A stretch of DNA of 64,000 nt from Allocoleopsis franciscana PCC 7113 (GCF_000317515.1 NC_019738.1:2940001-3004000), one strand, 5' to 3'; counted from the first letter of the stretch, positions 8,020 through 63,848 are shown. Numbers and translations: made by a program. The notes: a model not told the origin generated them from the letters alone.

Positions 8020-8658
8020 ATGAGAGAACAGAGACGCTTAAGCAGATATAAATGGAGTCAGCGACTTGGGGCTATTTTACTTGTGCTAGCAATTTGGAAT
8101 GTACCCCAATGCGCTCTAGCGGATGTCAACCAACAGGAGGTTAATGCGATTATCCGCACGCGAGAGATGGCGCTGCAAGCACTTAACACTCGCAATTTTT
8201 CCAAAATTGAACCTTACTTGCATCCAAGCTTCACGATTACCACAGTTGATAACCGGGTTTTTCATAAAGTGCCTGAATTTGAGCAGTATTGGAATCAACA
8301 GTTCTCCAGTTCAATTAAAGACATCAAAATGGAGGCGAAGGTGGATACTCCTAGAACGTTTCTCTCCCCGGAAACGGCCATTTCCTACGGAGATGCGCTT
8401 GCAACCTTCTATTTTAAAGATGGCAATAAACCCACAATGGCAATGCGATGGACAGCCGTGCTGCAAAAGTTCCAGGATAGATGGACCATTCAATCGCTGC
8501 ATTTTTCTTCCAACCTGCTGGATAATCCAGTACTAAATGGTGCCCAGCTAGCTAGTCGTGTTTGGGCAGTTGCGGCAGGAGTGGGCGGTATCCTGCTGGG
8601 GGCAGTCGCGATGCTGTTGTGGCGTCGCAAGCCTAAGCGAACGATAGAGAGAGTTTAA
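8020..8658 (+). CDS. Secreted or anchored SnoaL-like (NTF2-fold) protein
   Basis: This is a 212-residue protein with a signal peptide (about residues 18-35, ending near CALA) and a SnoaL/DUF4440-like domain at 36-165 (IIRTREMALQALNTRNFSKIEPYLHPSF, AISYGDALATFYF, WTIQSLHF). A C-terminal membrane helix (about 180-203) is followed by a basic tail, so the domain is likely exported and anchored. The glycosyltransferase gene starts 8 nt downstream. NTF2-fold domains bind small hydrophobic ligands or act as isomerases/hydrolases; the function here is unknown. Confidence 0.65.
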   Translation: MREQRRLSRYKWSQRLGAILLVLAIWNVPQCALADVNQQEVNAIIRTREMALQALNTRNFSKIEPYLHPSFTITTVDNRVFHKVPEFEQYWNQQFSSSIKDIKMEAKVDTPRTFLSPETAISYGDALATFYFKDGNKPTMAMRWTAVLQKFQDRWTIQSLHFSSNLLDNPVLNGAQLASRVWAVAAGVGGILLGAVAMLLWRRKPKRTIERV

Positions 8659-37668: not shown

Positions 37669-37750
37669 CACTCCCACGCCCTCGATTACCGGGGGATGAT
37701 TGCTTGATCCACTTGCCGTTAGACGACAGGAAAGAAAGACTTTTCCTAAA

Positions 37751-40363: not shown

Positions 40364-40535
40364 TTTAAGTTTTACACTTATAAAGTGCAACTGGCGGAGG
40401 CAGTTGATGTTGCTTACCGGTAGGATTAACCATTGGAAAATGGACATATTCAGCCTTCCCCCCTGGCATTAAGGCAAATTCAAGATAGAAGCAAAGGGCT
40501 TTTAGCGCAATATTTCTCGAACAAAGGTAGGGATT

Positions 40536-40903
40536 GTGCTCGGTGAAGCAAATTTGGCGGGTTCGACATTGGATTTTCGCTTGCTCTTTGAGTCAGTATC
40601 CGGTGCGTATTTAGTGCTGACACCGGATTCTCCAAGGTTCACGATTGTTGTCCGAAATGTATTCGCCAACGGGCAGGCACAATTCGAGGGAGAGGGGCTA
40701 GCCCGACGACCCGTTGGGTTCTTGGGAACCGCCCTCAACATCACCAGGGCGGGCAGACTCCAGCAGTCGCCCTCACCGCTTATGCTGGGGAAATCAATCA
40801 GCAACAAGCGATCGCGGCAGGATTTCAGCGGCATCTTGCCAAACCTGTTGAGCCAGAGGCACTGATGAAAGTAATTGCCGAGCTGGCTCAACAAACTCGA
40901 TAA
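40536..40903 (+). pseudogene. Collapsed hybrid-kinase remnant: PAS start joined to receiver end
   Basis: From GTG 40536 the frame gives [27 protein letters not shown], the opening of a PAS domain. After a short unrelated stretch another frame gives [20 protein letters not shown], then [17 protein letters not shown] and a stop at 40901-40903: the end of a response-regulator receiver domain. That last part resembles the C-terminus of the hybrid kinase just downstream. A large internal deletion plus frameshift of a similar kinase gene explains it. Confidence 0.65.
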
Positions 40904-40954
40904 TGCTGTTCATCCTCGTCTGCAAATCCTGACCTATGGATTAACCCAAATCTT

Positions 40955-43147
40955 ATGACCAACCTGATGGCTGAAGCAATGCCCATGGCTCCGATACCTG
41001 CAAACGAAGTTGAACGCTTAGCGGCTCTCTATCGGTATCGCATTCTCGATACTCCTCCTGAAGCAGCTTTCGATCGCCTTACCACATTGGCAGCGCGGCT
41101 ATTTGATATGCCGATCGCTCTCGTTTCGCTAGTGGACAAATCGCGAGCCTGGTTCAAGTCTTGCCACGGCTTCAATTTGAGTGAAGTTCCGCGAGATGCC
41201 ACGATTTGCAGCTTTGCGCTTTTATACAATCAGGTTTTAGTCGTTCCAGATACCCGACAAGATGAGCGATTCGCGTGTAATCCGTTTGTGCAAAGTGAAC
41301 CGGGCGTTCGTTTCTATGCAGGCGCTCCTCTAGTCACCCACGATGGCTTTAATCTGGGTACCCTCTGTCTGCTAGACAGCAAGCCCCGTGATGCTTTGAG
41401 TGCAGAGCAGCAAACCATTCTGGCTGATTTAGCCGCGATGGTGGTGGACGAACTGGAACTCCGCTATTCAGCTAATCGCATTACTCAAATCGATCAGGCA
41501 CTGCTAGCCGTAACGCAGGGGGTTTCAGCCGCAACGGGTGAAGCATTCTTCTATTCCCTGGTACAACATTTTGCCAATGTTTTGGCAGTGGATTACACCT
41601 ACATTGGTCTACTTGTCGAGCGCGACTCAGAAGAACTGATTCAAACGATCGCCACCTGTGCCCAGGGTCAAATTGTAGACAACTTCGAGTACTTACTGCG
41701 AGATACCCCTTGTCAAGCCGTACTGAAGCACCGAAAAATTTGTTGCTACCCTTCTAGTGTGCAAGCTCTATTTCCCCACGCTCCCCTACTCGCTCCGCTG
41801 CAAATAGAAAGCTATATCGCGGTTCCGTTTTTTGACTCAACTGGCACACCATTAGGATTACTGGGTGTGATGGATCGCAAACCGTTAGAAAATGCCCAAC
41901 TCACAGAAACCCTGCTTTCTATCTTTTCCATGCGAATCGCGGCTGAACTAGAGCGGCAGTGGGCGGAGGAGAAACGCATTCAGATGCTAGCCCGCGAACA
42001 GGAAGCCCGCGAGCAAGCTGAGGCAGCAAACCGCATCAAGGATGAATTTCTGGCGGTACTCTCCCATGAATTGCGATCACCCCTCAACCCGATTCTGGGT
42101 TGGTCTAAGCTACTCCGTAGCGGCAAATTAAATGCTGCAAAAACGGCTCAGGCTTTGGAAATAATTGAGCGCAATGCCAAACTCCAATCACAACTGATTG
42201 AGGATTTGTTGGATGTCTCTCGCATCTTGCGGGGCAAACTTAGCCTGAATATGGTTCCGGTGAATCTAGCCTCTACGATTAAAGCCGCATTAGAAACTGT
42301 GCGGTTAGCGGCAGAAGCGAAGTCCATTCAAATTCAGACCATGTTTGACCCAACAATCGGGCAAGTGTTGGGAGATGCCGCTCGCCTACAGCAGGTGATT
42401 TGGAATTTACTCACCAATGCCGTTAAGTTTACTCCTGAGGGAGGACGAGTAGAAATCCAGTTGCAGCTCATTGGCTCACAGGCTCAAATTCAAGTGAGGG
42501 ATACAGGGAAAGGCATTTCTCCTGATTTCCTGCCGCATGTGTTTGAATACTTCCGTCAGGCGGATGCGACTACAACTCGAACGTTTGGCGGATTGGGGTT
42601 AGGGTTGGCGATTGTACGGCATCTGGTGGAACTGCATGGTGGTACTGTTCAAGTAGACAGTCCTGGGGAAGGACAGGGAGCCACATTTACAGTTAGGCTG
42701 CCTCTAATCAAGGATAAAAGCAGTAAGCAGAAAGCAGAGGGGAATTCCTCACCTCTGACTCCTGAGCCTTCACCGCTTACAGGGATACGGGTACTGGTCG
42801 TTGATGATGACACAGATAGCCGCGAGTTTATTGCCTTCGCCCTCGAACAGTTGGGGGCACAAGTCAGCACGGTGACATCAGCAGAAGAAGCGATCGCTTT
42901 CCTGGAGCAATCGCAGCCAAATATTCTGTTGAGTGACATTGGTATGCCTGACATGGACGGCTATATGCTGATGCGCCAAATCCGGGCAATGCCACCAGAG
43001 CAAGGCGGACAGATTTTAGCGATTGCCCTAACGGCTTATGCTGGGGAAATTGATCGGCAACAGGCACTATTTGCCGGATTTCAACACCATCTCGCCAAGC
43101 CAGTCGAACCGAATGAACTCGTCAAAATGATTCTCAGCTTACTTTAA
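40955..43147 (+). CDS. GAF-GAF hybrid histidine kinase with receiver domain
   Basis: This is a 730-residue soluble protein. The first GAF domain (about 18-170: ALYRYRILDTPPEAAFDRLTTLA, DRFAC-like motif, FYAGAPLVTHDGFNLGTLCLLD) is followed by a second GAF (about 180-330), coiled coil, HisKA box (FLAVLSHELRSPLNPILGW) and HATPase (NLLTNAVKFTP, DTGKGI, GGLGLGLAIV). The C-terminal receiver domain has VLVVDDDTDS, phospho-acceptor Asp in LLSDIGMPD and a conserved Lys in LAKPVE. Lies between the CHAT and TPS genes on the same strand and could control them. No membrane span is seen. Confidence 0.92.
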   Translation: MTNLMAEAMPMAPIPANEVERLAALYRYRILDTPPEAAFDRLTTLAARLFDMPIALVSLVDKSRAWFKSCHGFNLSEVPRDATICSFALLYNQVLVVPDTRQDERFACNPFVQSEPGVRFYAGAPLVTHDGFNLGTLCLLDSKPRDALSAEQQTILADLAAMVVDELELRYSANRITQIDQALLAVTQGVSAATGEAFFYSLVQHFANVLAVDYTYIGLLVERDSEELIQTIATCAQGQIVDNFEYLLRDTPCQAVLKHRKICCYPSSVQALFPHAPLLAPLQIESYIAVPFFDSTGTPLGLLGVMDRKPLENAQLTETLLSIFSMRIAAELERQWAEEKRIQMLAREQEAREQAEAANRIKDEFLAVLSHELRSPLNPILGWSKLLRSGKLNAAKTAQALEIIERNAKLQSQLIEDLLDVSRILRGKLSLNMVPVNLASTIKAALETVRLAAEAKSIQIQTMFDPTIGQVLGDAARLQQVIWNLLTNAVKFTPEGGRVEIQLQLIGSQAQIQVRDTGKGISPDFLPHVFEYFRQADATTTRTFGGLGLGLAIVRHLVELHGGTVQVDSPGEGQGATFTVRLPLIKDKSSKQKAEGNSSPLTPEPSPLTGIRVLVVDDDTDSREFIAFALEQLGAQVSTVTSAEEAIAFLEQSQPNILLSDIGMPDMDGYMLMRQIRAMPPEQGGQILAIALTAYAGEIDRQQALFAGFQHHLAKPVEPNELVKMILSLL

Positions 43148-43322
43148 GCTAGCCACTTGGGGCAAGGGTTTGGTTGCTGTCCCGTCACTCTACTAAAAGG
43201 AGTCCAATCTCAGTTCATTCTGATGCTAACGGAAATAATATTACTCAACAATAAAAGCAACTTCTCGTAGATTATTCTCAGGCTTTCCCTAAGCCTAGAC
43301 CAGAGAGGATAATTATTACCTT

Positions 43323-45947
43323 TTGGTAGATAAAAATTCTCTCAAAAAAATTCAAACTAGGTTGAAGTCGTGGGAAATAACGTTGGCACAAGATATAGAG
43401 AATGGGTGCGATGAGTCGAAACTTCGTATCCGACTTAACGGTTGCCTGCTGATCAGGGAAGTGTTAGAGAAGCTTATCCTAAGCATTCCCGTCAAGAAAT
43501 CAAAAACATTAATTAATTACACTTTTCTGTTACTTTTTTACGTTTTACTTCCTCAAGGTCGGGCATTCGCTCAGTTAACCCCGGATACTACTTTAGGCAG
43601 CGAAAGTTCTATCATTACTCCTAGCGTTCTCATCAATAATCAACCCGCCGATCGCATCGATGGTGGAGCATTGAGAGGTGCAAACCTATTTCACAGTTTT
43701 TTAGAATTTAATCTTAACGACGGACAGCGGCTTTATTTTGCCTCACCAACTGGAATTGAAACTATTATTACGCGGGTAACAGGGGCTAATCCTTCTAATA
43801 TATTAGGAACGCTAGGTGTTAATGGTTCGGCTAATTTATTTTTAATGAATCCGAATGGCATTCTATTTGGCTCTAATGCGCGTCTGGATATAAAGGGTTC
43901 CTTTTTCGCAACGACGGCTAGCAGCATGGTGTTTGCCGATAGCAACTCATTCAGTGCGACAACGCCTCAAAACCCCTCACTTTTAACCGTCAGCGTTCCC
44001 TTGGGAGTGCAATTCGGGGCAACACCCGCAACGGTACAGGTGCAAGAATCAACTCTACAGGTGCCGTTGGGAAGAACCTTGGCACTTGTGGGCGGTGAAG
44101 TGAGGCTGCAAGGTGGCACAGTGGCAGCACCGGGCGGACGAATTGAACTCGGTAGCGTTGCAGATCATAGTTTTGTCAGTCTAAAACCGATTAATAATGA
44201 TTGGCAATTGGGCTATGAGGGTGTGCAGAACTTCCAAGATATACAGCTATCGAATCGGGCGGTCGTCAATGCCAGTGGTGACGGGGGAGGTGATATTCTG
44301 GTTTGGGCGCGATCGCTACGACTCGGTGAAGAGTCACGCCTTGAAGCATTAACCCTGGGTTCCCAACGCGGAGGAAAAATTAACGTCAACGCATCCAACT
44401 CAGTAGAACTCACCGGAACAGGAACCTATCTCCAGGACATACAACTGTTTTTAACCGGACAAATTAAACCGGCTAATCTACGCAATGGCTTGTTTACCCT
44501 AAGTTACGGTTCGGGTGCGGCGGGCGATGTGGTGATTAATACGCCTTCCTTTGTTGCCCGTAATGGAGCGTTTGTTGCCACATCTACCCTGGGAGCGGGT
44601 GAAGGTGGAGATTTAACCGTCAACGCCTCGGATAACGTCGAACTCACCACTTCTGCTTTAATCACAGGTAGTGGACTGGGGGATAGCGGTCAGGCTGGAA
44701 ACTTAACCGTGAATACAGGACGCTTTTTAGTGCAAGAGTATGGCGTTTTGGGAACGAGTACCCTGGGAAGCGGTAGGGGGGGAGAGTTAACCGTGAATGC
44801 CTCCCAATCCGTGGAACTCCTCGGCAACAATCCGATTGTGTTGGGTTCAGGTACTCGCTTTTTGACGGGCTTGTTTAGCACAACCTTCGGGGGTGGAGAT
44901 GCGGGAGACGTACAGGTGATGACACCGCGCTTGTCGGTACGGGATGGGGCGGCAATCGGGGCGAGTACCGCGAGTCTGGGAAAGGGGGGAAATCTTACAG
45001 TGACGGCGTCTGAGTTTGTGGAAATCATCGGCAAGTCTGGCGATGGTTCGGCTCAAAGTGCTGTGGCGGCTACAGCGGAGGCGGGTTCGACCGGTCAAGG
45101 CGGAAACTTAACCGTCCAAACTGGAGAATTGAGGCTTGAGGATGAGGGAAGACTCAGCGTCCGCAGTCGCGGAACGGGAGATGCAGGTAACTTGGAAGTC
45201 ATTGCTGATTCGATTAATCTTGACAATCAAGGCAGCATTGCCGCCGCCACAACCGTAGCTGGAGAGGGCGGGAATATTAAGTTACAAACCCATTCTTTGC
45301 AACTACGCCGCAACAGCATCATCAACGCCGAAGCGGGTGGTAGTGGAAATGGCGGCAACATCACGATTGACACAGACATCTTAGTTGCTCTGAAAAATAG
45401 CAGCATTACCGCTAACGCCTTCCAAGGGACTGGGGGAAATATTACAATTAACACCCAAGGTTTATTTGTTGCTCCAACAAGCAAAATCACGGCTAGTTCC
45501 ACTCTGGGAATTAGCGGCGTGGTAGATATCAATACCGAAGTGAATAGCGTTGAAGCGTCTCTGCCGCCCCTAGAAGAAGATTTTGTCAGTTCCGAACAAG
45601 TGATTGCCGATAGTTGTCTGGGACGCCCAAATGCTCAAGGTCGCAGCTTTACCGTCACTGGTACGGGTGGGTTACCGGCGACACCAGATGGTGCCTTCAC
45701 GACTTCTTATCCTATAACTGATGTACAGCAGATTGCTGAGAACAGCACCACGGGGTGGCGCGTGAGTCCAGAAGCGATCGCGGAACACTCCGACCGCCGC
45801 ATCGTCCTTCCCCTCCAAGAGGCGCAAGGAATGTTTATCACGGCTGATGGTCGTGTGGTTCTCGGTACTATCCCACAATTGGCAGCTCTCGCCCAGGCAG
45901 AGGACTTAATCTGCTACTTTCAAACACAGTCAGCATCTAGGAAGTAG
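43323..45947 (+). CDS. Two-partner-secretion exoprotein (TpsA) with filamentous-haemagglutinin N-terminal domain
   Basis: This is an 874-residue protein from a TTG start; no earlier ATG was found. A long N-terminal region ends in a signal peptide (LINYTFLLLFYVLLPQGRAFAQ). The TPS domain follows (LTPDTTLGSESSIITPSVL, FHSFLEFNLNDGQRLYFASP, then NPNGILFGSNARLDIKGSF with the NPNGI motif). The rest is a beta-helix of repeated G(G/E)GG(N/E/D)LTVNAS units. The tail has a Cys pair (DSCLGRP...LICYF). Exported across the outer membrane by a TpsB such as that at 54834-56597. Function is probably surface or adhesion related. Confidence 0.9.
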   Translation: MVDKNSLKKIQTRLKSWEITLAQDIENGCDESKLRIRLNGCLLIREVLEKLILSIPVKKSKTLINYTFLLLFYVLLPQGRAFAQLTPDTTLGSESSIITPSVLINNQPADRIDGGALRGANLFHSFLEFNLNDGQRLYFASPTGIETIITRVTGANPSNILGTLGVNGSANLFLMNPNGILFGSNARLDIKGSFFATTASSMVFADSNSFSATTPQNPSLLTVSVPLGVQFGATPATVQVQESTLQVPLGRTLALVGGEVRLQGGTVAAPGGRIELGSVADHSFVSLKPINNDWQLGYEGVQNFQDIQLSNRAVVNASGDGGGDILVWARSLRLGEESRLEALTLGSQRGGKINVNASNSVELTGTGTYLQDIQLFLTGQIKPANLRNGLFTLSYGSGAAGDVVINTPSFVARNGAFVATSTLGAGEGGDLTVNASDNVELTTSALITGSGLGDSGQAGNLTVNTGRFLVQEYGVLGTSTLGSGRGGELTVNASQSVELLGNNPIVLGSGTRFLTGLFSTTFGGGDAGDVQVMTPRLSVRDGAAIGASTASLGKGGNLTVTASEFVEIIGKSGDGSAQSAVAATAEAGSTGQGGNLTVQTGELRLEDEGRLSVRSRGTGDAGNLEVIADSINLDNQGSIAAATTVAGEGGNIKLQTHSLQLRRNSIINAEAGGSGNGGNITIDTDILVALKNSSITANAFQGTGGNITINTQGLFVAPTSKITASSTLGISGVVDINTEVNSVEASLPPLEEDFVSSEQVIADSCLGRPNAQGRSFTVTGTGGLPATPDGAFTTSYPITDVQQIAENSTTGWRVSPEAIAEHSDRRIVLPLQEAQGMFITADGRVVLGTIPQLAALAQAEDLICYFQTQSASRK

Positions 45948-46176
45948 GAAATAGAAGACATCAGGGAGTAAAAGAAGTCGTTTCTTTCATCTATAACGGG
46001 AGGTAAGCGCCCGTGAACTGCTTTAAACAGAATTCAATGCTTCCTACAGACTTTATATTTCAGCCTTCAGTTGACGCCGGAAATTAATCTCCGGGCGGGT
46101 TTGGTCGCTTACTGAAAAGGGTGCAAATCCCCAGCTTTTTTTACTATCGTCCTTGACTTTTAGGACTACCAATGAC

Positions 46177-48117
46177 ATGAAATTGAAGCGACTGAGACAG
46201 ACAATTTGGCAACGGCGTGGAGTTGGGATTGGAGCGATTACGGTCGCTAGCCTTGTGGTTGTCCTACGCCTTTCAGGTCTGTTGCAGTCATGGGAGTGGG
46301 CGGCACTTGATCAATTCTTTCGCAATCGTCCGGCAAAGCTACCTGATCAGCGCATTTTGGTTGTTGGGATTAATGAGTCAGACCTTCGTTATGTGGGACA
46401 GTGGCCTGTCAGTGATGCTGTTCTAGCTCAACTGATCAACAAACTGAAAGCCTTAAAGCCAAGAGCGATTGGTTTAGACCTGTATCGAAATTTGCCAGTG
46501 CCACCCGGTACCCAAACCTTGGAAAGCGTGTTTAAATCTACACCGAATCTGATTGGTATTGAAAAAAAAGTTGAGGATAGCATCGGCAATGCCACCGCAC
46601 CACCACCCGTGTTAAAAGAGTTGGGTCAGGTGGGTGCCAATGATGTCGTGCCTGATGCAGATGGCAGAATTCGTCGTGGCATGTTGTTTCTCACGCCTCA
46701 ATCCGAACCCGCTTTACCTAGCTTGGGGCTAAGATTGGCGTTGATTTATCTAGAGCGTCAAGGCATTACCCCAACAGCGGATGTAAACGGTTTTATGAAG
46801 TTAGGGAAGACTGTCTTGGTTCCCTTTGAAAAGAATGATGGCGGCTATGTTCGGGCAGATGCCGGTGGGTATCAAATCTTGTTGAATTTTAAAGGAAATG
46901 CCCCTTTTGATCAGGTTTCGATGACTGAGGTTTTGCTCGACCAAGTCCCGCCCTCGTTGGTGCGCGATCGCATTGTCTTAATTGGGTCGGTTGCACCGAG
47001 CTTGAAAGATTTATTTTATACCCCCTATAGCAACGATCTGCTCCCGTCGCCCAAGCAAAGTCCTGGTGTCGAGATTCAAGCCCATCTTACCTCCGTCGTC
47101 TTAAGTGCTGCTTTAGAAGGGCGTCCCGTGCTTCGGACGTGGTCAGAATCGGTAGAAGTTTTGTGGATTTTCCTCTGGTCGAGTGCGGGTACGGCTTTAA
47201 CATGGGCTGTGCGTTTTCAAGGTTATAAAAATTACTCTCTGTTACGCACAGTGATGGGTTTAGTGATTGTGGCGATCGCACTAATTATTATCGCGTATCT
47301 GCTGTTTTTGAACCACTGGTGGATTCCAGTGGTGCCACCTCTGATCGCTTTATTTGGGTCTGCCACTGTCTTGGTTGGTTATATTGCTCAATTAGAGCGG
47401 CAAGATAGACGAACTGTGATGAATCTATTTGGGCGTCACGTCAGTCCAGCTATTGCCAGAACCATCTGGCACAATCGCCGTCAGCTTCTAAAAAAAGGAC
47501 GCTTGTTGGGGCGTCAGATGACAGCAACGGTACTCTTTGCAGACTTAAAAGGTTTTACTTCTATTGCAGAGCAAACTGATCCAGAGACACTCATGTCTTG
47601 GCTCAACGAATATATGAGTGCAATGGTCGGGGTGATTCACGCCCATGGAGGCACTGTGGATAAGTTTATTGGGGATGCAATCATGGCTGTTTTCGGCGTC
47701 CCCATTCCACACACGGCACTAGAAGACATTGCCAAAGATGCGATCGCCGCTGTGCATTGCGCCAAAGTTATGGCATCCACCCTTCAGGCGCTCAATCAAA
47801 AATGGCAACTTCAAGGACGCCCCACGGCTGGAATGCGAGTCGGGATTGCCACCGGTCTTGTGGTCACCGGCAGTCTTGGTAGTTCCCAAAGACTCGATTA
47901 CACAACAATTGGGGACAGTGTGAATGTGGCATCGCGGTTAGAAAGTTATGATAAATCTCTCAACGGCGGGATTTGTCGCATTTTGATTAATAAAGAAACT
48001 TATTTGCATATACAGGGACAGTTCCCCACAAAGTTTATTGGGGAGGAACAACTCAAAGGACGTAAGCAGCCCACTGAAATTTATCAAGTTTTACTATCTA
48101 AATCTAATAAAAATTAA
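46177..48117 (+). CDS. CHASE2-domain class III nucleotide cyclase
   Basis: The start is ATG 46177 (MKLKRLRQTIWQ). An N-terminal membrane anchor is followed by an extracytoplasmic CHASE2 domain (about 40-310: LDQFFRNRPAKLPDQRILVVGINE, QWPVSDAVLAQLINKLKALKPRAIGLDLYR), three membrane helices (about 320-405) and a cyclase domain. The metal ligands are in LFADLKGFTS and FIGDAIMAVFG, and DKFIGD plus LDYTTIGDSVNVASRLE fit an adenylate cyclase. It would make cAMP in response to an outside signal. Lies between TpsA and DUF928 genes, all co-directional, within 250-bp gaps. Confidence 0.92.
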   Translation: MKLKRLRQTIWQRRGVGIGAITVASLVVVLRLSGLLQSWEWAALDQFFRNRPAKLPDQRILVVGINESDLRYVGQWPVSDAVLAQLINKLKALKPRAIGLDLYRNLPVPPGTQTLESVFKSTPNLIGIEKKVEDSIGNATAPPPVLKELGQVGANDVVPDADGRIRRGMLFLTPQSEPALPSLGLRLALIYLERQGITPTADVNGFMKLGKTVLVPFEKNDGGYVRADAGGYQILLNFKGNAPFDQVSMTEVLLDQVPPSLVRDRIVLIGSVAPSLKDLFYTPYSNDLLPSPKQSPGVEIQAHLTSVVLSAALEGRPVLRTWSESVEVLWIFLWSSAGTALTWAVRFQGYKNYSLLRTVMGLVIVAIALIIIAYLLFLNHWWIPVVPPLIALFGSATVLVGYIAQLERQDRRTVMNLFGRHVSPAIARTIWHNRRQLLKKGRLLGRQMTATVLFADLKGFTSIAEQTDPETLMSWLNEYMSAMVGVIHAHGGTVDKFIGDAIMAVFGVPIPHTALEDIAKDAIAAVHCAKVMASTLQALNQKWQLQGRPTAGMRVGIATGLVVTGSLGSSQRLDYTTIGDSVNVASRLESYDKSLNGGICRILINKETYLHIQGQFPTKFIGEEQLKGRKQPTEIYQVLLSKSNKN

Positions 48118-48284
48118 GCGGATTTTCTATCTAAATAGAGAGGAAATATGTCTTGGAGTATTTTATCCTAAACAGATAGATGACTCTGTGAAATCTTAGA
48201 ATTTCTACTGCACGATTCTCCAAATTAGGGTAAATCAGGGCGCTCTACTCATAGTAAAAAACTTTAAAACATTGCGTCTTTATT

Positions 48285-49031
48285 ATGGTGAATACTCGAC
48301 TAATGATGAGTGTGGTTACGGCTACCGCATCTCTATTCCTCATGCCTGTGATCCGTTGGGTGGATGGTTCTCCACTTCAAAAATTATCCAGCCCTGCTTT
48401 AGCCAGCTTTGCGGAACAACCAGCCTATAAATTTAACTATGTGCCTCCCTATCGCGGCACACCCAGACGCACCCAAGGAGCGGGTACACGAGGCGGTGAT
48501 GAGTCTGGAGAGGTGACACTGAAACTATTAGTTCCGGACGATCACACAGGACAAACGTTATCGGGTCATCCTACCTTTTTCTGGTATGTCTCAGAAATAC
48601 CAGAGGAACCCGTAGAATTTGCCTTAGTAGAATCGGGCGTTGCCCAGCCAATTTTTGTGCAGCAACTACAACTCGAAAAAGCGGGTATTATTCGCTTGAA
48701 AATGCCAAAAAATCTGCCCGCATTGGTTCCAGGGAAAGAATACCGTTGGTCTGTGAGCTTAGTCAGCAATGCTAATCGGCGCTCCTCAGACACCGTTGCC
48801 CAAAGCTGGATTAAGCGCGTAGCAGAAACACCAGCACTCAAGCAACAGCTAGCCACGGCAAAAAGCGATCGCGATCGTGCTTCAATTTATGCCGAAGCTG
48901 GACTCTGGTACGACGCTATAAATATCCTTTTAAAGGCTCAATCTACCAACTCCACTGATCGATCGATACATGAAGCTTTTCTCTCTTTACTTGATCGGGC
49001 TGGATTAACGGAAGTAGCGGAACAAGAGTGA
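48285..49031 (+). CDS. DUF928-domain exported protein
   Basis: This 248-residue protein has a signal peptide (LMMSVVTATASLFLMPVIRW) and the DUF928 pattern (PYRGTPRRTQGAGTRGG, LLVPDDHTGQTLSGHPTFFWYV, EIPEEPVEFALVESG, LPALVPGKEYRWSVSLV). DUF928 is mainly cyanobacterial, has no known activity and from memory often lies near CHAT, CHASE2 and TPS genes, as here. It is likely periplasmic. The C-terminal helical third may contact a partner. Confidence 0.8.
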   Translation: MVNTRLMMSVVTATASLFLMPVIRWVDGSPLQKLSSPALASFAEQPAYKFNYVPPYRGTPRRTQGAGTRGGDESGEVTLKLLVPDDHTGQTLSGHPTFFWYVSEIPEEPVEFALVESGVAQPIFVQQLQLEKAGIIRLKMPKNLPALVPGKEYRWSVSLVSNANRRSSDTVAQSWIKRVAETPALKQQLATAKSDRDRASIYAEAGLWYDAINILLKAQSTNSTDRSIHEAFLSLLDRAGLTEVAEQE

Positions 49032-56597: not shown

Positions 56598-56705
56598 GAA
56601 TGAGTTAACCGTAAATCTAGGAGTTAAGAAATGTCGGTGGATTTACGGACACTCCCCAGTCTACTCAATAAAATACACTTATCTGTCTCTGGATAGTTGA
56701 CTGAA

Positions 56706-59378
56706 ATGTTTCAAATTTGCCAAGATTGGCGTCGATTCAGTCTTATCTTCTTCGCGAGTCTTGTTTTTTGCAGCGTATTTCACGTGGGAGCAATAGGACA
56801 AGCTCAGTCTTCGGCTCCTGTAGAGCAGCCATCTCTCCCCTCTCCTCCTGCGAGTGGGAGTCAACAACCCTATTCCCAAGCGATACAGCAGGGGATTGAA
56901 CGCTATCAAGGGGGGCAATATGCTGAAGCGATCGCACTCTGGCAACAAGCCTTAACCCAAATTTCCGCCGCCCCAGAGAGAGCGATCATTTACAGTAATT
57001 TAGCGATCGCCTATCGACAAATCGGTCAATTGGATCGAGCAATCGCTCATTGGGAACAAGCCATCCAAATTTATCGCGCCCAAAAAGATGAGGCGGCACG
57101 CTCAGCACAGGCGAGATTGTTCACCGAGCAAGGACAGGCTTACAGCGATTTGGGACAACACAAACGAGCGATTACCCTATTGCAATCAGCGGTTAAAATT
57201 ACTCAAAACACTCCCAATCGACTCACAGAAGCGGCAGCTCAAGGAGCCTTAGGCAGTGCCTACTGGGCATTAGGGGACTATGATCAAGCATTGGCAGCGC
57301 ACCAAACCAGTTTAAAAATTGCCCGTGAATTGAATTATCCCCCTTACATCACAACCGCGTTGAATAACCTGGGCAATGTCTACGCGAGCCGGGGCGATCG
57401 CTATACTTATCAGGCTGAGTTAGCTCAATTAGAGGGCAATAATCGAGAATTTTCGCGCCTATCCCAAGCCGCAACACAAGATCGAACCCAGGGCAAAACT
57501 TACTTTGAGCAAAGTTGGCAAGCAGCTCAAGGGGTTTCAGGGTTAGAGGAAGCAAGAGCCTTGATGAATTGGAATCGTTTGCTGGTTCGGAGTCAGCGTT
57601 CGGGAGCCAGTGGGAACGCCCAGACACAAATTACCCAGCATGACGGAAATTTAATCCTAAAAAATTTTAACCGAGCCAGCGAGTTACTGCAAACCGCACC
57701 GGATTCGCGAGACAAAGCCTATGCGTTAATTAATCTGGCAGAACAAATTTCAAAGGTTGAGGGTTCAAATCTACAACCTGCAACTCTTTTAGAACAAGCG
57801 CTGACGGTGGCGAGAAAGATTGGGGATGCTAGAGCGGAATCCTTTGCTTTAGGAAGCTTCGCCGAGTTACACGAGGCGGCAGGAGACTTGAATCGTGCCC
57901 TGGCATTGAATCGCAAAGCGCAGTTTGCGGCTCAGCAAATCAATGCACCGGATAGCTTGTATCGCTGGCAGTGGCATGTGGGGCGAATGCTCAAAGCGTT
58001 GGGTGAAACCGAACAAGCGATCGCCGCTTATGAACAAGCGATCGCAACGTTGCAAAGCATTCGAGGGGATATTGTTGGCGCGAACAAAGATTTGCAACTC
58101 GATTTCCGCGAACAGGTGGAGCCAGTCTATCGGGAATTGATGACATTATTACTGGAATCTCCCCCATCCGCGAAGGTGAAAAGTGTTATCCCCACGCCAA
58201 AATCTTTGCTCCCCAATCCGTATATTCAGGTAAGTTTGAAAACGACAAAATCCAATCGTGCCAAGTCTTCTGTAGAGCAAGTTGTGGATATTTTGGAATT
58301 ACTCAAACTGGCTGAATTGCAAAACTTCTTTGGGGATGAGTGTGTGCAGGTAGCCTTGGCTGAGAGTGAGGGTGAGGCAGCGTTGACGGATACCAATACC
58401 GTTGTGGTTTACTCGGTGATTTTGGACAAGCAGACGCACCTAATTTTGCGATCGCCGGATGGTTCACTTACCCATTATCCCATTGCAATGGGACGGCAGG
58501 CAATTGAGCAAAAAATTGACCAATTGCGCTATTTCTTGGAATTACGGGCAACGGAAGATTATCTATCCCAAGCGCAGAAAATATACGATTGGCTGATTCG
58601 TCCCTTAGAAGCAAACTTAACGACGTTCAAGCCCAATACTGTGGTTTTTATTAACGATGGAGTGCTGCGGAAAGTCCCGATGGCAGCATTACATGATGGC
58701 AAGGAATTTTTAATTCAGAAGTATCCCATTGCCACAACACCGAGTCTGAGCCTAACGACTCGCCAACCTGTACACAATAACAATTTATCAGCTCTCAGTT
58801 TAGGATTAACCGTGGAGCGATCGCCCTTTGCTTCCCTCTCCAATGTCAGGGCGGAGGTAGAAGCGGTAAACCAGATTTTAGGCGGCACGAAACTCATTGA
58901 TGAAGGGTTTACCCTGCCCAACTTGCAAACCCAATTGCAGAAAAAAAGTTACCCCATTGTACATATCGCCACTCACGGTAAGTTTGGTGTGGATGCGGAG
59001 AGTACATTTTTGGTAGGATTTGACCAGCGGCTGAGTATTGAAACCCTGGATAACTTGTTGCGTTCTCGTCGCAGTCGAGAGGCGGTAGAATTGCTGACAC
59101 TGAGTGCTTGTCAAACCGCTGCTGGGGATAACCGTTCAGCCTTGGGAATTGCGGGGGTTGCGGTTCGTGCTGGGGTTGAGAGTGCCCTAGCAACGCTGTG
59201 GTATATCAACGACGAAGCCACAGTGCCCCTGATTAAGGAATTTTATAGCCAATTGCGTCAACCGAATGTGACCAAGGCGGAAGCGTTGAGACGGGCACAG
59301 GTGAAGATGATTGCGGATGCAAATTACAATCATCCTGCGGTTTGGTCGCCGTTTGTTCTGATTGGGAATTGGTTGTAG
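56706..59378 (+). CDS. TPR-CHAT caspase-like protein (copy 2)
   Basis: The start chosen is ATG 56706 (MFQICQDWRRFSL); a TTG lies 9 nt upstream. About 890 residues with the same layout as copy 1: hydrophobic segment (FSLIFFASLVFCSVFHVGAI), TPR repeats (YQGGQYAEAIALWQQALTQ, GDYDQALAAHQTSLKIARE) and a CHAT domain with His (VHIATHGKFGVDAE) and Cys (LTLSACQTAAGDNRSALG). It is divergent from TpsB with a 108-bp shared upstream region, which suggests joint control. It differs from copy 1 by insertions, such as a linker near 490-520. Confidence 0.9.
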   Translation: MFQICQDWRRFSLIFFASLVFCSVFHVGAIGQAQSSAPVEQPSLPSPPASGSQQPYSQAIQQGIERYQGGQYAEAIALWQQALTQISAAPERAIIYSNLAIAYRQIGQLDRAIAHWEQAIQIYRAQKDEAARSAQARLFTEQGQAYSDLGQHKRAITLLQSAVKITQNTPNRLTEAAAQGALGSAYWALGDYDQALAAHQTSLKIARELNYPPYITTALNNLGNVYASRGDRYTYQAELAQLEGNNREFSRLSQAATQDRTQGKTYFEQSWQAAQGVSGLEEARALMNWNRLLVRSQRSGASGNAQTQITQHDGNLILKNFNRASELLQTAPDSRDKAYALINLAEQISKVEGSNLQPATLLEQALTVARKIGDARAESFALGSFAELHEAAGDLNRALALNRKAQFAAQQINAPDSLYRWQWHVGRMLKALGETEQAIAAYEQAIATLQSIRGDIVGANKDLQLDFREQVEPVYRELMTLLLESPPSAKVKSVIPTPKSLLPNPYIQVSLKTTKSNRAKSSVEQVVDILELLKLAELQNFFGDECVQVALAESEGEAALTDTNTVVVYSVILDKQTHLILRSPDGSLTHYPIAMGRQAIEQKIDQLRYFLELRATEDYLSQAQKIYDWLIRPLEANLTTFKPNTVVFINDGVLRKVPMAALHDGKEFLIQKYPIATTPSLSLTTRQPVHNNNLSALSLGLTVERSPFASLSNVRAEVEAVNQILGGTKLIDEGFTLPNLQTQLQKKSYPIVHIATHGKFGVDAESTFLVGFDQRLSIETLDNLLRSRRSREAVELLTLSACQTAAGDNRSALGIAGVAVRAGVESALATLWYINDEATVPLIKEFYSQLRQPNVTKAEALRRAQVKMIADANYNHPAVWSPFVLIGNWL

Positions 59379-59533: not shown

Positions 59534-59770
59534 ATGTCTCTAGAAAGCTTGCAACAATTTTACCAACGAGTACTTGAAGACCCAGCGCTGCAAGAGCGAG
59601 TGCGACGGGCGACTAGTCAGGAAAGCCTGGTCAGGCTAATGGTTCGGTTGGGACAAGAAAACGGCTACGATTTCACTGTTGAGGAGGTGAGGCAACGCAT
59701 GGAGGAAGAATGGATAAAGTACGAAATACGCTACCCAATAGAAAACTTACTTAACCTTCCCGTACTTTAA
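59534..59770 (+). CDS. Nif11-like RiPP precursor peptide (1)
   Basis: This is a 78-residue peptide. It has the Nif11 leader pattern (SLESLQQFYQRVLEDPALQERVRRATSQESLVRLMVRLGQENGYDFTVEEVRQRM). It lacks the double-Gly cleavage site and Cys-rich core of most Nif11 precursors; the tail is EIRYPIENLLNLPVL. A -10-like TATACT (59502-59507) precedes it. It lies 246 bp before the radical SAM maturase, so it may be a substrate, or a leader-like binding protein. Confidence 0.82.
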   Translation: MSLESLQQFYQRVLEDPALQERVRRATSQESLVRLMVRLGQENGYDFTVEEVRQRMEEEWIKYEIRYPIENLLNLPVL

Positions 59771-59798
59771 TTAACATCTCGTACTTTAATTAACATCT
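59761..59798. repeat. 19-bp tandem duplication
   Basis: CGTACTTTAATTAACATCT is present twice in direct succession. The first copy includes the last codons and stop of the Nif11 gene. Confidence 0.8.
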
Positions 59799-60016
59799 CG
59801 CAGGAATGCCACCGTTACAACCCAGACGCATATTATAACGATGGGCTAAAGTAATTGACTCACTATCTCCAGCACTCACGGGCATCAGTCGCATTCTACA
59901 TACAGCAATTTTCAACGCCTTCGCAATAGATGACGGTACAACCGTCGGAAGCAACTTATTTCATCTTTTAGGAATGAGGGATGGTAATTTAGCTTTAATT
60001 ACCAATTAATAATCCT

Positions 60017-61969
60017 ATGACGGATGTATGCTTGGTTTTGATGCCTTACGCTGCAATGGAGCGCCCCTCTCTCGCTCTGGGTTTGTTGAAAGCCAGCCTC
60101 ACGGAGAGTGGAATTAACTCGACGGTGCTCTACCCCAATCTCTGGTTTGCCCAAGAAGTTGGAATCTATAACTACAAGATAATCAGTGAAGGGCTGGCAG
60201 CCTATTTCGTGGGTGAATGGACGTTCTCAGGGGTAGCGTTCCCCGACTTTGAGCCGAACCACTCAGACTATTTCAGGACTATCCCGAATCTTAAAGAAGA
60301 TACAATCAAGGAACTTTGGCGAGTGCGCCAGAAGGCGGCGGCGTTCATTGAGCGCATGGCTGAATCGATTCTGGACTTACAGCCTCGGATTGTCAGTTGT
60401 AGCTCCACCTTTCACCAAAACTGTGCTTCATTAGCCTTGCTGCGGCGAATTCGGGAGTTAGCGCCGGAGGTGATAACGGTGATGGGGGGGGCGAACTGTG
60501 AAGGGGTAATGGGTTTGGCGACTCTCCAGGCGTTTCCTTGGGTGGATTTTGTTTGTTCGGGGGAAGGGGATGAAATCTTTGCCCAGTTATGCGGCAAGGT
60601 TCTGGAACGGGGTCGGGATTTGGACTTGACAGAGTTACCCTTTGGTGTAGTTGGCTCTGCTCATCGGGACAAGGAAGTCGTAATGGCTTTGGCTCCTCGT
60701 GCATCGGTGCAGGATTTGGATCAAATTGCGATTCCGGACTACGACGATTATTTTCAAACGCTGGAAAATTGCCCAAAACTTGCCCCTTACATTACGCCTG
60801 GGATGTTTGTGGAAACGTCACGGGGTTGTTGGTGGGGGCAAAAGCAACATTGTACGTTTTGTGGGCTGAATGGTGCGGGGATGACGTATCGCTCGAAGTC
60901 GCCGGAACGAGTGGTGCGGGAGTTTAGTTGGCTATCTAGGCGCTACGGGCAGCGGAAGTTCTTTGTGGTGGATAGCATTCTGGATTTAAAGCACATTGAT
61001 ACGGTGCTGCCGATGTTTGCGGCGTTGGAGGAGCCTTATTCAATTTTTTATGAAACGAAGGCGAATCTGAAGCGCCAGCAGGTGCAGCAGTTGGCACAGG
61101 CGGGGGTGCGCTGGCTGCAACCGGGAATTGAAAGTATGCATGATTCGCTGCTGGGGCTGATGAAGAAGGGTAATACGGCGTTGATGAATGTCCAGTTGCT
61201 CAAGTGGGCGCGGGAGTTTGGGATTCAGGTGTTTTGGAATTTTTTGGTGGGGTTGCCGGGGGAGTGTGGGGAGTGGTACATCCAGATGTTGGAATGGCTA
61301 CCGTTAATGGTTCACTTGCAGCCGCCAACTGAAGAGACTAGACTCATGCGTTTTGATCGCTTCAGTCCCTATTATGAGCGACAAGAGGAGTATGGGTTAA
61401 CCCTTGTCCCTCAGCGCACCTATTCCTATCTCTATCCCTTGGATGCCGAGAGGCTGAAGGATTTAGCGTACTCGTTTGATGAAGTGGGGGAAGAGAGGAA
61501 GATTCCGGAGCATCAAAGGCTCAAAGAGTGGGTGAGTGAATGGCAAAGGCTGTTTAAGTCGGAGTCGCCGCCGATGTTGAGTGTCATGGAGGATAATGGC
61601 GATCGCATGAAGCTAGTTGATACTCGACCTTGTGCAATTGAGCAGGAAATTAGTTTAGATGGGTTAGCCTATCAAGTGTATGTGGAATGCGATCGGACTT
61701 TGACTTATCGAGAACTGTTGGATGTCCTAAATAAGAAGTACGGATATGAGGTTTCCTGGGATGAGATTCAGCCTGTTGTGGAGGAGTTGCTTCAACGCCA
61801 AATTGTATTGGAACTCAACGGGAGATTGCTGAGCCTTGCAGTTAGGGAACCGATTGTGCCTCTGTTGGATGTTAGAGAACAGCCAGCAGGATATGTAGAT
61901 GTGCAGGGTTATGTCAGCGATAGCCGGAAAGCCTTTTGGGAGTTATTCAGAAAAAAGGTGCCAACTTAA
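60017..61969 (+). CDS. B12-binding radical SAM RiPP maturase
   Basis: This is a 650-residue protein. An N-terminal cobalamin-binding-like domain (MTDVCLVLMPYAAMERPSLALGLLKASL, VMGGANCEG, VCSGEGDEIF) is followed by a radical SAM barrel: ETSRGCWWGQKQHCTFCGLNG, a C-x7-C-x2-C cluster motif, then ILDLKHIDTVLPMF, YETKANLKRQQVQQLAQAGV, QPGIESMHDSLLGLMKKG, WNFLVGLPGE. The pattern is that of ribosomal-peptide maturation radical SAM protein 1, linked with C-methylation of RiPPs. The C-terminal 130 residues include a PqqD-like segment (LDGLAYQVYVECDRTLTYRE, LLDVLNKKYGYEVSWDEI) that may bind the leader. Confidence 0.9.
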   Translation: MTDVCLVLMPYAAMERPSLALGLLKASLTESGINSTVLYPNLWFAQEVGIYNYKIISEGLAAYFVGEWTFSGVAFPDFEPNHSDYFRTIPNLKEDTIKELWRVRQKAAAFIERMAESILDLQPRIVSCSSTFHQNCASLALLRRIRELAPEVITVMGGANCEGVMGLATLQAFPWVDFVCSGEGDEIFAQLCGKVLERGRDLDLTELPFGVVGSAHRDKEVVMALAPRASVQDLDQIAIPDYDDYFQTLENCPKLAPYITPGMFVETSRGCWWGQKQHCTFCGLNGAGMTYRSKSPERVVREFSWLSRRYGQRKFFVVDSILDLKHIDTVLPMFAALEEPYSIFYETKANLKRQQVQQLAQAGVRWLQPGIESMHDSLLGLMKKGNTALMNVQLLKWAREFGIQVFWNFLVGLPGECGEWYIQMLEWLPLMVHLQPPTEETRLMRFDRFSPYYERQEEYGLTLVPQRTYSYLYPLDAERLKDLAYSFDEVGEERKIPEHQRLKEWVSEWQRLFKSESPPMLSVMEDNGDRMKLVDTRPCAIEQEISLDGLAYQVYVECDRTLTYRELLDVLNKKYGYEVSWDEIQPVVEELLQRQIVLELNGRLLSLAVREPIVPLLDVREQPAGYVDVQGYVSDSRKAFWELFRKKVPT

Positions 61970-62039
61970 GTTTGGATAGGTTGTCAACTGGAAAAGCGAA
62001 CGAGGTATAATCCACATAGTTGAATTGGGTATAGCAATC

Positions 62040-62297
62040 ATGAGCCAAAGCACCTTAACGATTTCAGGCTTAGAAGACTTTATGCAATTAGTGCTGGAAG
62101 ATCAGGTGCTGCAAGATAAACTCCAAGCCTGCCCTGATGAAGAAAGCCTTGTTTCCTGTGTCGTTCAACTAGGTCAAGAGAAGGGATACAGATTCACTGA
62201 TGAAGAAGTTCGAGAGAAGCTAGCGCAAATAAGAGAAGAGCACGAATTTACATACCCACTAAGTGATGTACCACCTCAAATTCTTTACTTTTATTAG
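62040..62297 (+). CDS. Nif11-like RiPP precursor peptide (2)
   Basis: ATG 62040 is preferred to a TTG 15 nt upstream. This 85-residue peptide has ISGLEDFMQLVLEDQVLQDKLQACPDEESLVSCVVQLGQEKGYRFTDEEVREKL. Like the first copy it has no Gly-Gly and ends in EFTYPLSDVPPQILYFY, matching the first tail at E-[FI]-x-Y-P-[LI]. It lies 70 bp after the radical SAM gene; TATAAT upstream (about 62007) may be its own promoter. Confidence 0.82.
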   Translation: MSQSTLTISGLEDFMQLVLEDQVLQDKLQACPDEESLVSCVVQLGQEKGYRFTDEEVREKLAQIREEHEFTYPLSDVPPQILYFY

Positions 62298-62434
62298 CCT
62301 AGCTCACACTCTACAGGCAGACTTTGCAACATTCTGTTTGGGAAATTGCAGTAGTTGTGAAGCAGCTTTAGAGCCATAACAGCAAGTTGTACAAGGTAGG
62401 CAAAGTTGAAGTCCACGATAAAAGGGGTAAGTCT

Positions 62435-63487
62435 ATGGACAGCTCAATGGCAGATTACTTGAAAGTGGTTACTTCCTACCTTCCCTCTGAGTTGCTCTCT
62501 CCTAACTCAAGTCTTCACCTCCAAAGCTTGGCTCAAATCTTACCCCCCTTCTCTTCAGCCATGTTGGAGTTTCGCTTAGGCGCTGATCAGTCTCAGACTG
62601 ACATGTCAGTTTTTTTTACCCCTCGTATCCTAAATTTATCAGAGACGTTGCTCAATCATGGTGTTTGGCAAGCTTTACAGGATTTTTGCCAGAATTGCGT
62701 TGAGCCAACATCTCTAGAGCATCGTTACGTGAAAAAAATAGCACTTGAATTTGATTTGGATGAACAGCAATCACAAGTACCAATCCCTTCTATTTTTCTA
62801 TTCTGGAATGAGGGAAATGTTAATGATGCTCAAGCACTGATTGAAATTCTCTTCAGGTTACCTAATTATTTAGTCTCTTCAAAATTACAGTCTAATCTTC
62901 AGCTTTGTGTTAATTCGCTTCCTCAGGGTGCTAAAGTCGAGCATATTGGGGCAATGTTGTCTCGTCCGGGTGAGGTGTTGAGACTAATAGTGGGGGGTAT
63001 CCCTCCACAGCAGTTTTCAGATTATCTGATGCAAATAGGCTGGTGTGAATCCACAGAGACTATCTCTACTCTCGTCTCTAATTTATATGGCTTGGTAGAT
63101 GAAATACGTTTTTTGTCCTTCGATATTGGTGATGTTATTTATCCCAGAGTAGGTTTAGAATTTTTTCTAAAAAAGCAGCCTGAGCATGAACCTAGATGGG
63201 AATTATTTTTAGACCGTTTGATTGAAATGGGATTATGTACGCCAGCTAAAAAAAATGCCCTTCTAGCGTGGTCTGGCATTTCTCAAAAAGCCGACAATCC
63301 AGAATTATGGCCTCAGAATCTGAGTAGGGGAGATCGTTTACTAAGTTCCAGGGCATCTAGCGTTTTTTGGAGAACAATCAACCATATAAAAATTGTCTAT
63401 CAAACAGACAGTCCTTTGGAAGCTAAGGGATATTTAACGTTTAGTCATCAGTGGATCGATGCCAGAACCCTAACTACTAGCTGTTAA
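62435..63487 (+). CDS. Unknown protein of the Nif11/radical SAM locus
   Basis: ATG 62435 follows AAGGGGTAAG and is preferred to a TTG at 62387. The 350-residue protein has no signal peptide and no motif recognised for lanthionine, cyclodehydratase, protease or transporter families. Conserved-looking parts are MLEFRLGADQSQTDMSVFFTP, IPSIFLFWNEGNV and RVGLEFFLKKQPEHEPRWELF. It looks globular alpha/beta. Position suggests a maturation or carrier partner of the Nif11 peptides. Confidence 0.7.
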   Translation: MDSSMADYLKVVTSYLPSELLSPNSSLHLQSLAQILPPFSSAMLEFRLGADQSQTDMSVFFTPRILNLSETLLNHGVWQALQDFCQNCVEPTSLEHRYVKKIALEFDLDEQQSQVPIPSIFLFWNEGNVNDAQALIEILFRLPNYLVSSKLQSNLQLCVNSLPQGAKVEHIGAMLSRPGEVLRLIVGGIPPQQFSDYLMQIGWCESTETISTLVSNLYGLVDEIRFLSFDIGDVIYPRVGLEFFLKKQPEHEPRWELFLDRLIEMGLCTPAKKNALLAWSGISQKADNPELWPQNLSRGDRLLSSRASSVFWRTINHIKIVYQTDSPLEAKGYLTFSHQWIDARTLTTSC

Positions 63488-63760
63488 TCCAAGAATTCAA
63501 TCAACCATAAACAATCGATACTCGCCCTGGATGACAGCTTAAGAAAAATACCCTAAAAAGGTTAGCTTACTGGACATAGACTGGGTGCGATTGCTCCGCA
63601 ACATAGCTGAATTTGAGCCTGCACGCTAGAAATCCCCAGCAATTCAACTTAGGCTCAAGCCGGATAAGGCTATTTAGCTGATTCTTGAAGATTTTTTGCT
63701 GCTACAAATGAAAAATCTAAGAACCTGCTATACTTTTGCGATAACTTTTGGGAAAACTAT

Positions 63761-63848
63761 ATGTCTCAAGACAACTTAGAGCGGTTCTGCCAATTAGTTA
63801 AGAGAAAATCAGGCACTTGAAGTAACCTGTTTCACAGTTTTAGATTGA
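63761..63848 (+). pseudogene. Frameshifted, truncated Nif11 peptide gene (3)
   Basis: ATG 63761 gives MSQDNLERFCQLV then a frameshift and stop at 63820. If one A is removed from the run at 63800-63801 the frame continues RENQALEVTCFTVLD to 63848. The 42 bp before the ATG match the region upstream of Nif11 gene 1 (CCTG(A/C)TATACT(C/T)TTGCGATA, then TTTTGGGAAAA), so a promoter and leader were copied with it. Confidence 0.65.

Follow-up and report, generated by a model that had tools for sequence, protein, structure and literature searches.

The window analysed here is a 64,000-nucleotide stretch of the Allocoleopsis franciscana PCC 7113 genome (GCF_000317515.1 NC_019738.1:2940001-3004000), and the system in question is a gene cassette near its end that combines Nif11 peptides, a B12-type radical S-adenosylmethionine (SAM) enzyme and a protein called X below. 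An earlier note had described this as a Nif11/radical SAM locus for a ribosomally synthesized and post-translationally modified peptide (RiPP). That description holds for the lack of a double-glycine (GG) site and of a local protease or transporter, but it missed both the identity of X as a predicted prenyltransferase and its duplication. On balance, we favour a RiPP cassette that probably carries out C-methylation and leader-guided prenylation of linear Nif11 peptides, without LanM. Positions are numbered on the window; L numbers (L005 etc.) denote loci read beyond the window or in other genomes, which have G numbers. The genes of the cassette are as follows:

59534..59770, + strand: Nif11 peptide P1, 78 aa (PF07862 E 2e-15; TIGR03798 42.4 bits)
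60017..61969, + strand: predicted B12-type radical SAM RiPP C-methyltransferase, 650 aa (end-to-end TIGR03975 match; PF04055; PF02310 weakly, under its cut-off)
62040..62297, + strand: Nif11 peptide P2, 85 aa (PF07862 E 8e-11; TIGR03798 32.4 bits)
62435..63487, + strand: X1, predicted MppC-family ABBA-fold peptide prenyltransferase, 350 aa, ATG start (fold model, MppC-like homology)
63762..63821, + strand: degenerate Nif11 remnant of 19 codons, MSQDNLERFCQLVKRKSGT then stop (from the sequence; upstream region still P1-like)
L005:10056-10301, just outside the window: Nif11 peptide P3 (PF07862 31.5 against a cut-off of 23.8)
L005:10404-11447, beyond the window end: X2, a second copy of X, 57% identical to X1

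Two intact Nif11 peptides do flank the radical SAM gene, since both PF07862 and TIGR03798 recognize P1 and P2, although P2 barely exceeds the TIGR03798 cut-off (32.4 against 32.3 bits). The P1 tail is EWIKYEIRYPIENLLNLPVL, with no GG, no Cys and no Trp or Tyr past its YP; P2 ends in ...HEFTYPLSDVPPQILYFY and P3 in ...EISYPLANLDEIPSVVVW, and these tails likewise contain neither GG nor Cys. The cassette had been taken to end at 63848, which is too early: the sequence from 63762 onward is the Nif11 remnant, and P3 and the second X follow it in that order (L005:10056-11447). The remnant retains a 69-bp DNA match to the upstream region and start of P1 (78%), and the P1 upstream region (CCTGATATACTCTTGCGATAGATTTTGGGAAAAACTC-ATG) also resembles that of the Nif11 gene in the nearest other genome, G010. 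P2 ends 137 bp before the ATG of X1. The gap between P1 and the radical SAM gene (59770-60016, 247 bp) holds a 54-aa minus-strand open reading frame (ORF), and no second copy of the gap was found elsewhere in the genome. Simple promoter scans performed no better than shuffles.

Three of the four Nif11 genes in the whole genome lie at this locus. The fourth is the N-terminal part of a 2-oxoglutarate (2OG)-oxygenase-like protein (L007:8584-9495), close to a Cys-bearing GG peptide (8174-8473) and a C39-type ABC exporter. Reading the ORFs around the cassette, part of which were searched against the domain library, revealed neither a peptidase nor an ABC exporter, and these ORFs and the cassette itself also gave no sign of LanM or another ring-former. 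A C39 peptidase/ABC gene does exist about 480 kb from the cassette, next to a Nif11 gene and a GG peptide of its own; action on P1-P3 in trans is judged unlikely, because none of the three has a GG site.

The radical SAM enzyme matches TIGR03975 from end to end (model positions 1-606 of 606; 782.7 bits against a cut-off of 281.85), and the C-x7-C-x2-C cluster motif already pointed out in the earlier note is present as C271-x7-C279-x2-C282. PoyC, which shares this motif, methylates the C-beta of Val (PMC5682303, PMC11285071). The PqqD-like end is putative: the order of its elements, beta-beta-alpha-alpha-alpha-beta-beta, is consistent with a winged helix, but Pfam gives no PqqD match, and the model of this possible RiPP recognition element (RRE) reaches a predicted local distance difference test score (pLDDT) of only 64 and matches no PDB entry better than E 0.4. 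Close relatives of the enzyme (E<=1e-60) occur in 13 of 388 genomes of the order. The nearest is in G010 (85% identity), which alone among the relatives has the same cassette. In G009 (63%), X and a GG Nif11 peptide lie within 10 kb, and G106 has a broken radical SAM copy among X fragments. The relatives in G185, G258 and G339 stand beside other precursors, by eye with nitrile-hydratase-type leaders. The G106 locus (L131, G106:C1:134000-153900) also contains a WelO5-like 2OG halogenase/oxygenase and a squalene-hopene-cyclase-like protein, and the adjoining L132 has a LanM-like gene; together they look like a decayed terpenoid-lanthipeptide cluster.

The gene after P2 had been left as a 350-residue unknown. 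It is a member of a real family, present in 52 of the 388 genomes and 39 of 149 genera, and it can now be given a name, since it is a predicted ABBA-fold protein, a homologue of MppC and duplicated outside the window. X has no match in Pfam, NCBIfam or PDB sequences; the last were also searched with a profile of X, and because this returned nothing, the fold assignment rests on a model. A search of genome contigs using the two X copies likewise gave no match, and a family search with a 7-row alignment gave 7 loci. The AlphaFold (AF2) model, built from 8 sequences, has a pLDDT of 86.4 and a predicted TM score (pTM) of 0.87, and consists of five beta hairpins with helices between them. Its best Foldseek match is EpzP (E 8.5e-8), and VIA gives Z scores of 16.8 for FunA, 16.7 for CymD and 16.4 for an NphB mutant. 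The best 50 rows in both structure comparisons are all ABBA prenyltransferases (VIA Z 14.8-16.8). With high confidence, X is predicted to adopt the ABBA prenyltransferase fold.

A link to a characterized enzyme comes from the mpp cluster of Moorena producens, which includes two arginases, LanM, the prenyltransferase MppC and a halogenase; its precursor MppE consists of a 77-aa Nif11 leader followed by ACWRWSG (PMC11791876). MppC geranylates Trp82 of MppE only when the leader is attached, and in a model backed by mutants its Phe340 enters a hydrophobic cavity of the leader (PMC12715784). In G007, a genome from the same family as that of the window, one Nif11 gene (L047) encodes exactly the 84-aa MppE precursor. 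It sits between two arginase-like genes and an X gene, the latter immediately following the precursor, and LanM-like and halogenase-like genes are nearby. Residue 340 of the G007 X protein is Phe, and X1 shares 33% identity with this protein over 281 aa (E 5e-48); the comparison is to the G007 protein, which is equated with MppC by gene context and F340 numbering and differs from PAL MppC at position 336 (Leu instead of Trp). At the Phe340 column, every X protein with a residue there has F, L or V (G010 has F, and X1 and X2 both have L). Given the MppE precursor beside X in L047, the F340 numbering and the 33% identity, X is, as judged from its sequence, a member of the MppC family. It would function in the manner of MppC, but we do not class it as a lanthipeptide enzyme, because no LanM was seen around the cassette and the tails have no Cys.

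In the leading alternative, X keeps the ABBA fold but is mainly a leader-binding scaffold or some other transferase, and the chemistry is left to the radical SAM enzyme and, elsewhere, to the fused partner enzymes. X is indeed fused at its C-terminus to a SAM methyltransferase in G010, G072, G004 and G164 and to a 2OG-Fe(II) oxygenase in G081, G059, G121 and G105, as an adapter would be. Against this, E45, R183, K272, K331 and Y333 of X do not vary across 20 homologues, the MppC-like protein among them, as expected for an active site, and MppC itself is active. We consider a scaffold or another transferase unlikely, and a docking-only X, which was also weighed, ranks below a prenyltransferase. 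Two observations on the fusions stand by themselves. The class I SAM methyltransferase, fused to X in L032, L033, L034 and L087 and a separate gene after X in L098, is missing from both X1 and X2, although their nearest relative in G010 has one; and the oxygenase fusions in L042, L043, L099 and L103 lie near several Nif11 peptides with a C-terminal Lys-Trp.

The related tails that had been described for P1 and P2 (E-x-x-Y-P) are real and extend to P3, but they are narrowly distributed: G010 has E-x-x-F-P, and E-x-x-[YF]-P is confined to these peptides of the two genomes. More widely shared among the tails is an aromatic residue that is C-terminal or nearly so, Tyr in P2 and Trp in P3. For the counts, we took the 15 different Nif11 peptides encoded directly upstream of an intact X gene on the same strand. 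Trp or Tyr occurs in the last 25 residues in 15/15 of these compared with 14/27 of the Nif11 peptides that are not beside X (Fisher p 8e-4). Seven of the 15 are GG-less, and six of these seven have an aromatic in the last three residues, compared with 4/27 (p 1e-3); both p-values are rough, because the background contains near-copies and the counts followed seeing the tails. The sole X pseudogene beside a Nif11 gene (L051) has a peptide whose tail lacks Trp and Tyr. We take the tail counts as supporting rather than decisive. X, rather than the radical SAM enzyme, is the most consistent enzyme companion of these Nif11 peptides, and the aromatic tails point to the peptides being substrates, not only docking proteins.

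It is slightly less probable than a scaffold role for X that the peptides are not RiPP precursors at all, but unmodified docking or regulatory Nif11 proteins at a decaying locus. The lack of GG, protease and transporter would fit, as would the degenerate remnant at 63762, and conserved GG-less Nif11 families do exist elsewhere, away from X genes. Against it speak three Nif11 genes, two X genes and a radical SAM gene that are all intact, and the aromatic tails are kept across the families of the GG-less group, just as the upstream region is conserved between this genome and G010.

Returning to C-methylation combined with prenylation, the analysis establishes the genes present, the family and motif of the radical SAM enzyme, the MppC homology and (as a prediction) the ABBA fold of X, its adjacency to Nif11 genes and the aromatic tails; both chemistries, the isoprenoid donor, the sequence of events, what becomes of the leader and the linear product are our inference. 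Nif11-type leaders would guide two tailoring enzymes to C-terminal tails that are short, linear and free of Cys. C-methylation of an aliphatic tail residue would fall to the B12 radical SAM enzyme (TIGR03975, PoyC-type motif), and V, I and L are abundant in the tails. X, duplicated with its own precursor each time (P2-X1 and P3-X2), would bind the Nif11 leader and prenylate the C-terminal aromatic, Tyr in P2 and Trp in P3, with the isoprenoid of a prenyl diphosphate. With neither LanM nor another ring-former in the cassette or the neighbouring ORFs read, prenylation would act on the linear peptide. The leader, lacking a GG site, may be retained or removed by a housekeeping protease. P1 may serve the radical SAM enzyme only.

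Several points weigh against this pathway. P1 offers no Trp or Tyr past YP, and X1 and X2 carry Leu where MppC has its docking Phe340. The predicted ABBA fold proves neither prenylation nor the donor. The RRE of the radical SAM enzyme is putative (no Pfam PqqD match, C-terminal pLDDT 64), the complete radical SAM-Nif11-X order is common to this genome and G010 only, and several other close radical SAM relatives adjoin other precursor types. The tail counts were made after the tails had been seen, and their background of 27 peptides is small and partly made up of near-identical conserved Nif11 families. The least probable of the alternatives is that the radical SAM enzyme crosslinks or otherwise rearranges the tail without methylating it and X lipidates the product; the full-length 783-bit match to TIGR03975, a family named for C-methylation, and the absence of tail Cys for thioethers both speak against it.

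The cassette lies inside a conserved two-partner secretion (TPS)/CHAT/CHASE2 neighbourhood, of which two genes precede P1:

54834..56597, - strand: ShlB/FhaC-type outer-membrane transporter of TPS (PF03865 E 2e-35, PF08479; same place in G010)
56697..59378, + strand: TPR-CHAT protein directly upstream of the cassette (PF12770 E 3e-57; same place in G010)

The genes run ShlB, CHAT, radical SAM, Nif11, X, TPS exoprotein and CHASE2-cyclase both here and in G010. A DUF928 gene belongs to the neighbourhood in G010 and is found further on, in L006, in this genome. A TPS exoprotein gene also directly follows X (or X-methyltransferase) in G072, G164 and G295, and in the GG-less subgroup X precedes such a gene wherever the contig is long enough; that of G004 stops inside X. 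A branch with support of 98/100 separates the X proteins of this subgroup from MppC and the oxygenase fusions, although the inner forks are weak and the GG-bearing row L037 and rows in no group may lie inside. With about 34 TPS exoprotein genes in this genome, the adjacency at a single locus would be rare by chance, yet shared descent of one ancestral arrangement explains its repeats, and so we do not take it as independent evidence. It is improbable that these linear GG-less Nif11 peptides form a distinct, unreported RiPP subclass, lipidated at the terminal Tyr or Trp, C-methylated, never freed of their leader and functionally tied to the TPS exoprotein, in a role such as membrane anchor or companion signal.

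Two further regions were noted nearby. Shortly before the set of genes around the cassette, the window (37700-49031) has a second CHAT, TPS exoprotein, CHASE2-cyclase and DUF928-like set without RiPP genes. L006:4136-16000 contains, by eye, type III CRISPR effector-like genes broken up by transposase-like ORFs.

The analysis offers an identity for a family that is unnamed in the domain libraries searched and present in 52/388 sampled genomes of the order, and ties it to MppC, a characterized Nif11-leader-dependent peptide prenyltransferase. The cassette would be of a known kind, with a new pairing of an MppC-family ABBA prenyltransferase and a B12 radical SAM enzyme. A literature search, with many journals outside its coverage, found no report of a B12 radical SAM enzyme combined with a leader-guided prenyltransferase.

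Among known systems, prenylated cyanobacterial RiPPs with cyclized isoprenoids have reportedly been described (Hubrich et al. 2024, cited in PMC12715784); the present locus would differ in having no terpene cyclase. The cyanobactin prenyltransferases (PagF and relatives) share with X the ABBA superfamily and soluble peptide prenylation in cyanobacteria, which for X is predicted. They act leader-free (PMC12715784), whereas X adjoins Nif11 leaders; at the sequence level, no PDB prenyltransferase shows detectable similarity to X. The PoyC-type proteusin C-methyltransferases of TIGR03975 resemble the radical SAM enzyme in CX7CX2C motif and full-length family match (PMC5682303, PMC11285071); here, the leaders are of the Nif11 rather than the nitrile-hydratase type, the tails are very short and the partner is a predicted prenyltransferase. 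The locus also resembles the mpp cluster, which has a Nif11 leader, an ABBA prenyltransferase belonging to the same family as X and an aromatic acceptor near the C-terminus. Unlike that cluster, the present locus has no LanM, lanthionine, tail Cys, GG, arginase or halogenase, Phe340 is replaced by Leu, and a B12 radical SAM enzyme is present instead. MppC prefers a macrocycle, whereas prenylation here would act on a linear peptide; a cassette of predicted B12 radical SAM enzyme and leader-guided prenyltransferase acting on linear peptides bears on whether leader-dependent prenylation needs a macrocycle.

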